Assembly: GCA_902574335.1 (NCBI GenBank)
Contig: CACGNO010000008.1
Span: forward strand, 1 to 41,623
Reading direction: 5' to 3'
DNA from: an uncultured Bacteroidota bacterium
GTDB taxonomy: Bacteria > Bacteroidota > Bacteroidia > Flavobacteriales > Flavobacteriaceae
Length of the DNA stretch: 41,623 nt
The notes beneath the pieces are model-generated. The model saw nothing but the letters and a program-made list of their open reading frames with translations, made no database searches and was not told where the DNA came from. Both the position numbers and the translations under genes were made by a program. Positions 18,704 to 22,561 of the stretch are shown here, piece by piece; positions within the stretch are counted from its first letter, which is position 1, and each line of letters starts with the position of its first letter.

Positions 18704-19366
18704 ATGAAAAATATTTTTAAATCCTCAATTGGTAGAAAAATAGCGATGGCTTTATCGGGGATTTTTTTAATAGTTTTTTTAACCCAACACTTTCTAATTA
18801 ACATTACATCTGTTTTCAGTGAGGATATATTTAATATGTTATCCCATTTCATGGGCAACAACCCTTTAGTTCAATTTGTATTGCAACCAGTTTTAATTGC
18901 AGGAGTGCTTTTTCATTTTGTTATGGGTTTTATTTTAGAATGGCAAAATAGAAAGGCAAGACCTGTCACATACGCTATGTACAAGGGATCTAAAAACTCA
19001 ATGTTTGTTTCTAGGAATATGATTATATCAGGTATAGTGATTCTATCTTTTTTAGTATTACATTTTTACGATTTTTGGGTTCCAGAGATGGATTATAAGT
19101 ATATACAGTCTCTGCCCGAAGACCCTAATAGATATTATGAGGAATTGATCCACAAATTTGAAAATCCAGTAAGAGTTGGTTTATATTGTCTATCTTTTAT
19201 ATTTCTTGCTTTACACTTAGTTCATGGTTTGTCATCTTCAACTCAGTCATTAGGAACTAATAACAAGTATGCTACAACTATTGAAAAAATAAGCTTTGCT
19301 TTTGGCATAGCTATTCCATTAGGGTTCTGTTTCATTGCTCTTTATCATTTTTTTATTCATTTTTAA
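18704..19366 (+). CDS. sdhC: Succinate dehydrogenase cytochrome b subunit
   Basis: MKNIFKSSIGRKIAMALSGIFLIVFLTQHFLIN...ARPVTYAMYKGSKNS...LHLVHGLSSSTQSLG. ATG at 18704 preferred over the TTG at 18683, which overlaps a -7-like element. Confidence 0.95.
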   Translation: MKNIFKSSIGRKIAMALSGIFLIVFLTQHFLINITSVFSEDIFNMLSHFMGNNPLVQFVLQPVLIAGVLFHFVMGFILEWQNRKARPVTYAMYKGSKNSMFVSRNMIISGIVILSFLVLHFYDFWVPEMDYKYIQSLPEDPNRYYEELIHKFENPVRVGLYCLSFIFLALHLVHGLSSSTQSLGTNNKYATTIEKISFAFGIAIPLGFCFIALYHFFIHF

Positions 19367-19383
19367 CACATAATGCACGATTT

Positions 19384-19416
19384 TGTAACACTATCAATTT
19401 ATTAATATGTGTTACA
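19384..19416. repeat. Inverted repeat TGTAACAC-N17-GTGTTACA
   Basis: Perfect 8-bp arms at 19384-19391 and 19409-19416, spacer TATCAATTTATTAATAT. Confidence 0.8.
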
Positions 19417-19443
19417 TATAATATATATATTACAAATATAGAG

Positions 19444-19507
19444 CGTGTTAAAAAAATAATTAATCACATTTTTTTTTATTTTAATTTTTATTATTAATTT
19501 TAACACG
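19444..19507. repeat. Inverted repeat CGTGTTAAAA ... TTTTAACACG ending 3 nt before the SdhA-fusion ATG
   Basis: Perfect 10-bp arms at 19444-19453 and 19498-19507; GTGTTA core shared with the preceding inverted repeat. Confidence 0.8.
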
Positions 19508-19510
19508 TGA

Positions 19511-21814
19511 ATGAAAAAAATTACTTACTCTTTAAACTATAGAAAGCCTAAAGAAGAATACACCGAAAATTGTGAGTTAACTGTTTGCGTTAGATATTAT
19601 CAAAAATTAGATGATGGAAAACATAAAGTAGTAAAAAAAAGTACTGGTGTTAAATGCAAACTCAAAGATTGGGACTCTGATTGGCACAAAGCAGAAAATA
19701 GACACCCTATTAAATCTACTGATTCTAACTATTTAGAAAAGAACAGGATTATTCGTAACAAGTCTATAGATCTTCATTCATTTATTAAAGATTTGAAACC
19801 GTTAAAAAACATTTCATCATTTAATTCAAAAGTTCCAAATGGTCCTCTTCATTTAAAATGGAGCAATCATAAAAATGACGTAAGATTAGTAAGTCCTGCT
19901 AATAAAAGAAATATCGATATCATTGTTGTTGGTACTGGTCTAGCGGGAGGTTCCGCATGTGCTACTCTTGCAGAACAAGGATACAATGTCAAAGCCTTTT
20001 GTTTTCAGGATTCATCTCGAAGAGCACACTCTATTGCTGCTCAAGGTGGTATTAATGCTGCAAAGAATTATCAGGGAGATGGTGATTCTGTCTACAGACT
20101 TTTTTACGATACAATAAAAGGCGGTGATTATAGATCTAGAGAATCTAATGTGTACAGATTAGCAGAAGTTTCATCAAGCATTATTGACCAATGCGTTGCA
20201 CAAGGAGTTCCATTTGCTCGTGAATATGGAGGACTTCTAGATAATAGATCTTTTGGTGGTGTTCTTGTGTCAAGAACATTCTACGCTAAAGGTCAAACAG
20301 GACAACAATTACTACTAGGTGCTTATTCTGCAATGAATAGACAAGTTGCAAGAGGAAAAATTGAAATGTTCACTCGACATGAAATGATGGATATTGTTGT
20401 GGTTGAAGGTAAAGCACGTGGTATCATTACACGAAACTTAATTACTGGTGAAATTGAGAAGCATTCAGCTCATGCGGTTGTTTTAGCCTCCGGAGGATAT
20501 GGGAATCTATTTTATTTATCGACTAATGCAATGGGAAGTAATGTTTCAGCTGCATGGAAAGTTCACAAAAAAGGTGCTTTATTTGCTAATCCATCATTTA
20601 CCCAAATCCATCCAACTTGTATTCCTGTTTCAGGAGATTATCAATCTAAATTGACACTTATGTCAGAATCACTTAGAAATGATGGTAGAATATGGGTGCC
20701 GAAGAAAATTGAAGATGCTAAAAAAATTAGTGAAGGAACTTTAAAACCAATCGATCTTAATGAAGAAGACAGAGATTATTATTTAGAGCGAAGATATCCA
20801 GCCTTTGGAAATCTTGTACCAAGAGATGTTGCATCAAGAGCTGCTAAAGAACGATGTGATGCTGGATATGGTGTTAATAAAACAGGTGAAGCAGTTTTCT
20901 TAGATTTTTCATCCGCAATTATTCGATATGGAAAAGAAAAAGCTTTGGTAAAAGGCTTAGACACTGAAGATATGGATTTAGTTAAATCATTAGGAGAAGG
21001 TGTTATTAGAGCTAAATATGGAAATTTATTTCAGATGTATGAGAAAATTGTAGATGAAAATCCTTACAAAACACCAATGATGATTTATCCTGCGGTGCAT
21101 TATACAATGGGAGGTCTTTGGGTAGACTACAATCTAATGACAACTATACCTGGGTGTTATGCAATTGGAGAAGCTAATTTCTCTGATCATGGAGCTAATA
21201 GGCTTGGCGCATCCGCATTAATGCAAGGACTGGCTGATGGTTACTTTGTATTGCCAAATACTATAAATGATTACTTAGCTGATGATATAAAAACTGGGCC
21301 AATTCCAAATGATAAACCTGAATTTGATGAAGCAAAAAAGAATGTTGAAGAAAAAATAGAAAAATTAATTTCTAATAAAGGATCAAAGTCAGTTGATTTC
21401 TTTCACAAAAAATTAGGTAAAATTATTTGGAATAACTGTGGTATGTCTAGAAACGAAACAGATTTAAAAAAGGCTATAAAAGATATTCAAAACCTAAGAT
21501 CGGACTTTTACAATAATATTAAAGTAACAGGTGATAAAAACTCCTTTAATGAATCTTTAGCAAAAGCTCTAAGGGTTGCTGATTTCATGGAACTTGGAGA
21601 ATTATTTGCAGTTGACGCTTTGAATAGAAATGAGTCTTGTGGAGGTCACTTCAGAGAAGAATATCAAACAAAAGAAGGAGAAGCATTAAGAAATGATGAT
21701 GATTATAGGTTTGTTTCAGCTTGGGAGTATAATCCTATAATCGAATTTTCAAAATTACACAAAGAACATTTAGACTTTGAAAATGTTGAACTTAAAAGTA
21801 GGTCTTATAAATAA
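19511..21814 (+). CDS. sdhA: Succinate dehydrogenase flavoprotein subunit with ~100-aa N-terminal extension resembling a tyrosine-recombinase arm-type DNA-binding domain
   Basis: Residues from ~101 on ([60 protein letters not shown]...[24 protein letters not shown]...) are canonical Bacteroidetes SdhA. Residues 1-100 ([55 protein letters not shown]...[19 protein letters not shown]) are not SdhA and read like an integrase N-terminus. Confidence 0.9.
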
Positions 21815-22561
21815 ATGAAGTTATATCTAAAAATATGGCGTCAAAAAAATAGTCAATCCAAAGGGAAAATTGTTGATTATGAGATTGATGATATTTCACC
21901 TGATATGTCTTTTCTAGAAATGATGGATGTATTAAATGAAAAGATCATTGATGAAGATGGTGATCCAGTAGCTTTTGATCATGACTGTAGAGAAGGAATA
22001 TGTGGATCATGCTCAATGTTTATAAATGGAGAGCCACATGGACCTGACAAGTTAATTACAACTTGCCAATTGCATATGAGAAGATTTAAAGATGGTGATA
22101 CTATTTATATTGAACCTTTTAGAGCTAAAGCATTCCCAATAATAAAAGATTTAGTAGTTGATAGAACAGCGTTTGACAGAATTCAACAATCTGGTGGCTT
22201 TATATCAATTAATACATCAGGAAATACTCTTGACGCTAATACAATTCCAATTGAAAAGGAAAATGCTGATAAAGCATTTGATGCTGCAACTTGTATTGGT
22301 TGTGGTGCATGTGTTGCAAGTTGTAAGAATTCGTCTGCAATGTTGTTTGTTTCTGCTAAAGTATCTCAATTTTCTTTATTGCCTCAAGGTAAAGTTGAAG
22401 CTACTGATAGAGTTTTGAATATGGTTAATCAAATGGATGAAGAAGGTTTTGGAAATTGTACCAATACCGGAGCATGTCACGTTGAGTGTCCTAAAGGAAT
22501 CTCATTGGATTACATTGCAAAGCTTAATAGAGAATACGTTAAAGCAAACCTGAAGAAATAA
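21815..22561 (+). CDS. sdhB: Succinate dehydrogenase iron-sulfur subunit
   Basis: [20 protein letters not shown]...[19 protein letters not shown]...[27 protein letters not shown]. Confidence 0.97.

Follow-up and report, generated by a model that had tools for sequence, protein, structure and literature searches.

A recombinase-type arm-binding domain fused to SdhA, and a putative operator array before its gene, suggest self-regulation of succinate dehydrogenase in marine Flavobacteriales

Why should the gap between two genes of a respiratory enzyme be crowded with short repeats, and why should the protein encoded just beyond it begin with an integrase-like domain? The question arises from a 41,623-nucleotide stretch of DNA (the window) from a partial genome assembly (0.92 Mb; 57% complete) of an uncultured marine flavobacterium. 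An initial annotation had described five TAACAC/GTGTTA hexamers between sdhC and sdhA, arranged as two inverted repeats, and read them as recombinase sites or operator dyads retained from a captured element or, instead, as sites regulating sdhAB. We consider it quite likely, from the comparisons set out below, that the hexamers are operators (GTGTTAYAA) through which a domain borne by SdhA regulates sdhAB in a PutA-like manner.

The window carries, on the plus strand, the membrane anchor gene sdhC (18704..19366; Pfam Sdh_cyt, 37.7 bits), an sdhA gene whose product has about 97–100 extra N-terminal residues ahead of a complete SdhA, and, directly 3′ of sdhA in the list of open reading frames, the iron-sulfur subunit gene sdhB (21815..22561), identified solely by its place in the operon. 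Within SdhA, an arm-binding-like domain (residues 1–97; 19511..19801) is followed by a low-confidence, probably flexible linker (19802..19825; pLDDT <50 from residue 100) and the flavoprotein core (19826..21814; FAD_binding_2 and Succ_DH_flav_C). The extension belongs to the same family as the arm-binding (AB) domain of tyrosine recombinases, PF17293 (Arm-DNA-bind_5), exceeding the curated cut-off of 22.6 bits as an isolated domain (residues 1–136, 24.8 bits; also in a six-frame scan) and falling below it, at 19.6 bits, when the whole SdhA protein is scored; the domains of the related loci L086 (17.0 bits) and L104 (19.6 bits) are also under the cut-off. An AF2 model of the isolated extension (pLDDT 88.2) contains three strands (E4–8, E22–32 and E38–50) and a helix (H74–95), and this predicted fold appears to match the three strands then helix stated for recombinase AB domains (PMC8138268), a family that binds short repeated arm sites. 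A Foldseek search of the PDB with the model gave no meaningful match, and a phage integrase at rank 4 in BFVD (TMq 0.56, E 0.16) was non-significant and was not counted. The extension shares 38% identity with the arm domain of a genuine integrase from a same-genus genome, and it evolves under purifying selection, with dN/dS values of 0.02–0.09 in close pairs that resemble those of the SdhA core.

Turning to the repeats, TAACAC at 19364, 19386 and 19501 and GTGTTA at 19409 and 19445 can be read directly in the window, just where the initial annotation had put them, as can the inverted repeats TGTAACAC-N17-GTGTTACA (19384–19416) and CGTGTTAAAA-N44-TTTTAACACG (19444–19507). The clustering also proved to exceed chance, as had been supposed: the 147 bp running from the sdhC stop codon up to the sdhA ATG contain five hexamers against a mean of 0.23 in dinucleotide shuffles, the maximum among 20,000 shuffles being three and none reaching five. 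Counted across the entire window, the hexamer occurs about as often as chance predicts (22 versus 17.8), and the same holds for GTGTTAYAW across the window genome (34 sites versus 32 for a reversed control pattern); the clustering is therefore local to the sdhC–sdhA gap, and the concern that similar densities might recur elsewhere falls away. The chance-level frequency genome-wide also ruled out a dispersed repeat family. Two further arrays that match the pattern in the genus, in G018:C57 and G007:C3, lie within coding DNA and are probably due to chance. In a same-genus genome, a four-site TAACAC/GTGTTA array with two sites 22 bp apart (G010:C6:34888-35010; L116:7890-8010) sits between convergent genes away from sdh.

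What is conserved in 52 related loci is a single asymmetric 9-bp site, GTGTTAYAA; it faces either way, which fits a site in double-stranded DNA. The inverted repeats are thus correctly described as sequence, whereas the dyad as a conserved unit was rejected, being one of several arrangements that vary among relatives. In the window, site 1 (GTGTTAAAA on the minus strand, TTTTAACAC; 19361..19369) and site 3 (GTGTTACAT on the plus strand; 19409..19417) are read directly; site 2 (GTGTTACAA on the minus strand, TTGTAACAC; 19383..19391) is 22 bp from site 1, site 4 (GTGTTAAAA on the plus strand; 19445..19453) is 36 bp from site 3, and site 5 (GTGTTAAAA on the minus strand, TTTTAACAC; 19498..19506) lies 5–10 bp upstream of the sdhA ATG. 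The TAACAC of site 1 overlaps the sdhC stop codon, the TAA of sdhC being the first half of the site; this site is kept in most clade-A relatives (L053–L055, L077 and L085), and site 5 is found in all of them. In the 52 gaps the heptamer occurs 132 times against 4.6 expected, a density of 19.9/kb compared with 0.21/kb elsewhere in the same loci (about 93-fold), and the spacings of same-orientation neighbours cluster at 11–12, 22, 35–37 and 46–48 bp. Many extension carriers have additional sites 19–72 bp upstream of sdhC. Five loci (L063, L066, L067, L075 and L079) retain just a single perfect gap copy, a point against the operator reading, though further sites lie upstream of sdhC in each.

These 52 loci, found in marine Flavobacteriales with one genome taken per GTDB species, are those bearing the arm-domain extension: in 49 the domain is fused in frame to SdhA, in two a contig end truncates the locus, and in one the domain forms an open reading frame by itself. 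Sites are present at sdh in every one of them, so that the suggested association of the array with an integrase-like arm-binding domain is borne out. In 51, one to six sites lie in the region before the domain reading frame; the exception, L102, has a gap of 6 bp and two TTGTAACAC sites 22–23 bp apart just upstream of sdhC. Relatives without the extension, where the same array would have counted against the association, have none in 14 of 14 loci, including three from a sister clade in the window's own genus. There, sdhC and sdhA overlap or almost touch, with gaps of only 0–60 bp where the window has a putative control region (19367..19510); against the operator reading stands a single isolated TAACAC (TAACACATT) in the short gap of each of L021 and L026. 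Among 195 genomes sampled from the order, the SdhA frames listed are mostly about 650–700 aa, save for the arm-domain fusions and those of a second family, f7; frames of 743 aa (G398) and 747 aa (G294) result from upstream in-frame reading into sdhC and are not new extensions.

The extension is patchy on a tree of 64 SdhA cores (six changes), and a single clade of all carriers is rejected (AU p 1.5e-11); its history must therefore include repeated losses, transfer or both. Extension and array co-occur in all independent comparisons, of which three are on supported branches, too few for significance. One carrier, L104 (genome G343), encodes an 827-aa SdhA with the arm domain and a linker longer by about 60 residues; it belongs to family f9, otherwise without the fusion in the sample, and is a long branch in the SdhA tree, and its fusion may have arrived by horizontal transfer. 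Many bacterial sdh operons are under ordinary regulators, and the sites could belong to an unrelated stand-alone transcription factor, the SdhA extension having some other role; such a reading gains from the fact that binding by the extension is itself deduced from sequence. We nevertheless hold it to be improbable: the array follows the extension and not the lineage, a clade of the same genus being without both, the motif is at chance genome-wide, and SdhA is the only PF17293 protein in the window genome, as far as its 57%-complete assembly extends.

Where the sites stand relative to the promoter bears on the sign of the proposed regulation. The flavobacterial sigma-A −7 box is TAnnTTTG (PMC9723704), and it occurs in the last 70 bp before sdhA in 34 of 48 gaps against 5.7 expected; the gap of the window clade, a point against the proposal, has no perfect TAnnTTTG, and in the window a degenerate −7-like TAATTTTA precedes site 5. 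In L070–L073, L078, L082 and L104, TAACAC lies directly 3′ of the −7 box, over the expected start point, and in seven close relatives of the window (L058–L062, L064 and L065) the box lies between two sites. Such placement makes repression likely in several clades, with activation or looping also possible. One large clade has paired sites 48–60 and 107–118 bp upstream of the −7 box, and the distance of the nearer ones (about 48–60 bp) would suit activation or looping as well, leaving repression only the likelier sign; arrays flanking the promoter in family f7 point the same way. That SdhA, with the same fusion and sites, is mainly an activator or an architectural, looping protein at its own promoter is accordingly a possibility, but an unlikely one, given the several clades in which a site directly follows the −7 box or falls between box and ATG, the usual place of a repressor. 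The regulator would probably be a repressor.

Control could also act on the mRNA, with SdhA or an inverted-repeat hairpin governing translation of sdhA, given that site 5 adjoins the start codon and that base pairing between the repeats is possible in the window sequence. This seems very unlikely to us. Sites are found on either strand, relatives do not keep the dyads, and the domain family is a DNA-binding one; moreover, sites upstream of −7 boxes are outside the transcript of that promoter.

The presence of PF17293, an integrase arm-binding domain, leads to the suggestion that the sites are core/arm recombination sites from a donor mobile element and the array a fossil attachment site, and domains of this kind are known to bind accessory arm sites (PMC8138268). 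The sdh loci examined, however, contain no integrase catalytic domain, att duplication, element boundary or element genes; synteny is metabolic (sdhC–sdhA–sdhB), and the arm domain is fused to SdhA. The integrases whose arm domains are closest to the extension (L034:5957-7768 and L110:1700-1980) both lie at tRNA-Met with TAGTACCC direct repeats, likely a different arm site, and no GTGTTAYAA array was found near the G012 or G097 integrases, so that neither the motif nor the array, which the initial annotation had proposed to look for upstream of intact integrases, accompanies the nearest recombinases. While the extension shares its family and its three strands and helix with AB domains, it differs in being fused to SdhA, in having no catalytic recombinase and in facing sites at a metabolic promoter. 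The purifying selection on the extension argues that the array is kept up across the lineage as part of sdh and is no leftover, and the array's persistence over widely diverged genera and its tie to promoter boxes are unlike a fossil; we therefore give this reading scarcely any credence. The one further observation in its favour is a GTGTTATAA cluster beside a duplicated tRNA-Asp 3′ end in the window genome. There, seven GTGTTATAW copies within 1.5 kb (G000:C2:59156-60666; L113:11156-12668) adjoin a 177-bp, 94% duplicated tRNA-Asp 3′ region, a probable att scar, and some copies precede small open reading frames with TAnnTTTG boxes; the cluster could be an integrated element with a recombinase using a similar site, or repeated promoters.

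A parallel to the arm-domain fusion comes from family f7 of the same order, in which SdhA is fused N-terminally to HTH_17 (PF12728), an excisionase/MerR-like domain (49.7 bits in the G042 copy). Ten loci carry this fusion (L121–L126, L129–L131 and L133), and the gap of every one contains RGACA repeats, 42 in total against 3.9 expected, with 40 of the 42 in one orientation, mostly at 10-bp steps and, in most of the loci, extending up to the start codon. Three f7 members without HTH_17 have gaps of 32–46 bp, and one genome, G299, has two HTH_17–SdhA genes. HTH_17 has a fold unrelated to that of the window's arm domain and a different operator, a direct-repeat array of its own, and the HTH_17–SdhA fusions appear to be independent of the arm-domain fusions; the case is a parallel to the window's and not the same system. 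That two unrelated domains are each accompanied by a distinct array in the same position argues for binding by the fused domain and is hard to explain otherwise, by a stand-alone factor in particular.

Locus L086 (genome G183; 84% complete) offers a natural experiment. In its sdh region (L086:4650-9050; G183:C13), sdhC persists as scraps only, some with stops, and a native SdhA was not found in the genome; the arm domain is an intact stand-alone 131-aa open reading frame with four sites before it, and directly 3′ lies an unrelated replacement sdhC–sdhA–sdhB set of the PRK07803/PRK12386 type. Although this is one species only, and a recent deletion that has not yet decayed is possible, the locus suggests that domain and array are of value apart from the enzyme. 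That these two parts alone were kept is again at odds with a separate factor acting on the sites.

The predicted targeting is narrow. In 20 whole genomes of other lineages, a closely spaced double site has 29 matches, mostly in the sdhC–sdhA gap, and by this measure paired-site targeting appears near-exclusive to sdh. Four matches lie away from the sdh gap. One (L091:930-970) is a double TTTGTAACAC site over a TAnnTTTG box, overlapping TAAATTTG, immediately upstream of another SdhA/FrdA (TfrA-like) flavoprotein gene, which the SdhA regulator may also control; two more seem to code for one and the same peptide in sister species, and the fourth is inside an open reading frame.

Together, the co-occurrence of extension and array, the promoter box and the f7 parallel support the regulatory option of the initial annotation, with the hexamers as putative operators of sdhAB. 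After its synthesis in the cytosol, SdhA is recruited by SdhB and the SdhC anchor. We propose that a tyrosine-recombinase arm-binding domain was co-opted at the SdhA N-terminus on a flexible linker, and that the sdhC–sdhA gap would be a separate control region with its own promoter (in most relatives with a TAnnTTTG −7 box). Free, unassembled SdhA may bind several phased sites cooperatively and lower sdhAB transcription; uptake into the membrane complex by SdhB and SdhC would remove it from the DNA and open the promoter. Alternatively, release could follow a change in the substrate or flavin redox state of SdhA. The fusion, its conservation and selection, the array, its co-occurrence with the extension, the promoter box, the near-exclusive targeting of sdh and the f7 parallel can all be read in the genomes, and from them we infer that the domain binds the sites, that its effect is mainly repressive and what signal releases it.

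The closest likeness in working is to E. coli trifunctional PutA, a catabolic membrane-associating flavoenzyme with an N-terminal DNA-binding domain that represses its own operon and switches between DNA and membrane (PMC5293562). SdhA is likewise a membrane-associating flavoenzyme with an N-terminal DNA-binding-type domain and operator-like sites at its own gene. The window protein is not itself of the PutA type, which is a PRODH/P5CDH with a ribbon-helix-helix domain, whereas here SdhA carries an integrase arm-binding domain (PF17293) or HTH_17, with other operators. The analogy is one of working and implies no homology: for PutA, repression and membrane switching are known, while for SdhA the corresponding behaviour is predicted from sequence alone, by the fused domain and the sites in its own control region. 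A broader likeness is to trigger enzymes, which also act in gene regulation: here too an enzyme would convey its state to transcription. The open-licence papers searched yielded no example of SdhA fused to a DNA-binding domain.

We lean towards the view that, on two or more occasions in marine Flavobacteriales, SdhA turned into a sensor-regulator of its own production by capturing domains of mobile-element type (an integrase arm and an excisionase-type HTH). Each capture would have come with a newly evolved operator array, coupling transcription directly to the assembly or redox state of Complex II, and in one lineage or more the circuit would have survived the loss of the enzyme, standing now before a replacement sdh operon. 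The standard example of an enzyme that carries a DNA-binding domain is PutA; a core enzyme of the TCA cycle and respiration seems to have followed that path on two occasions, the domains being unrelated, and recombinase arm-binding domains may gain a role outside recombination. The steps by which domain capture turns an enzyme into a regulator, and by which its operators arise with it, become testable here; so is whether, in small-genome marine bacteria such as the many flavobacteria that appear to carry the fusion, single-target fusions replace separate regulators.
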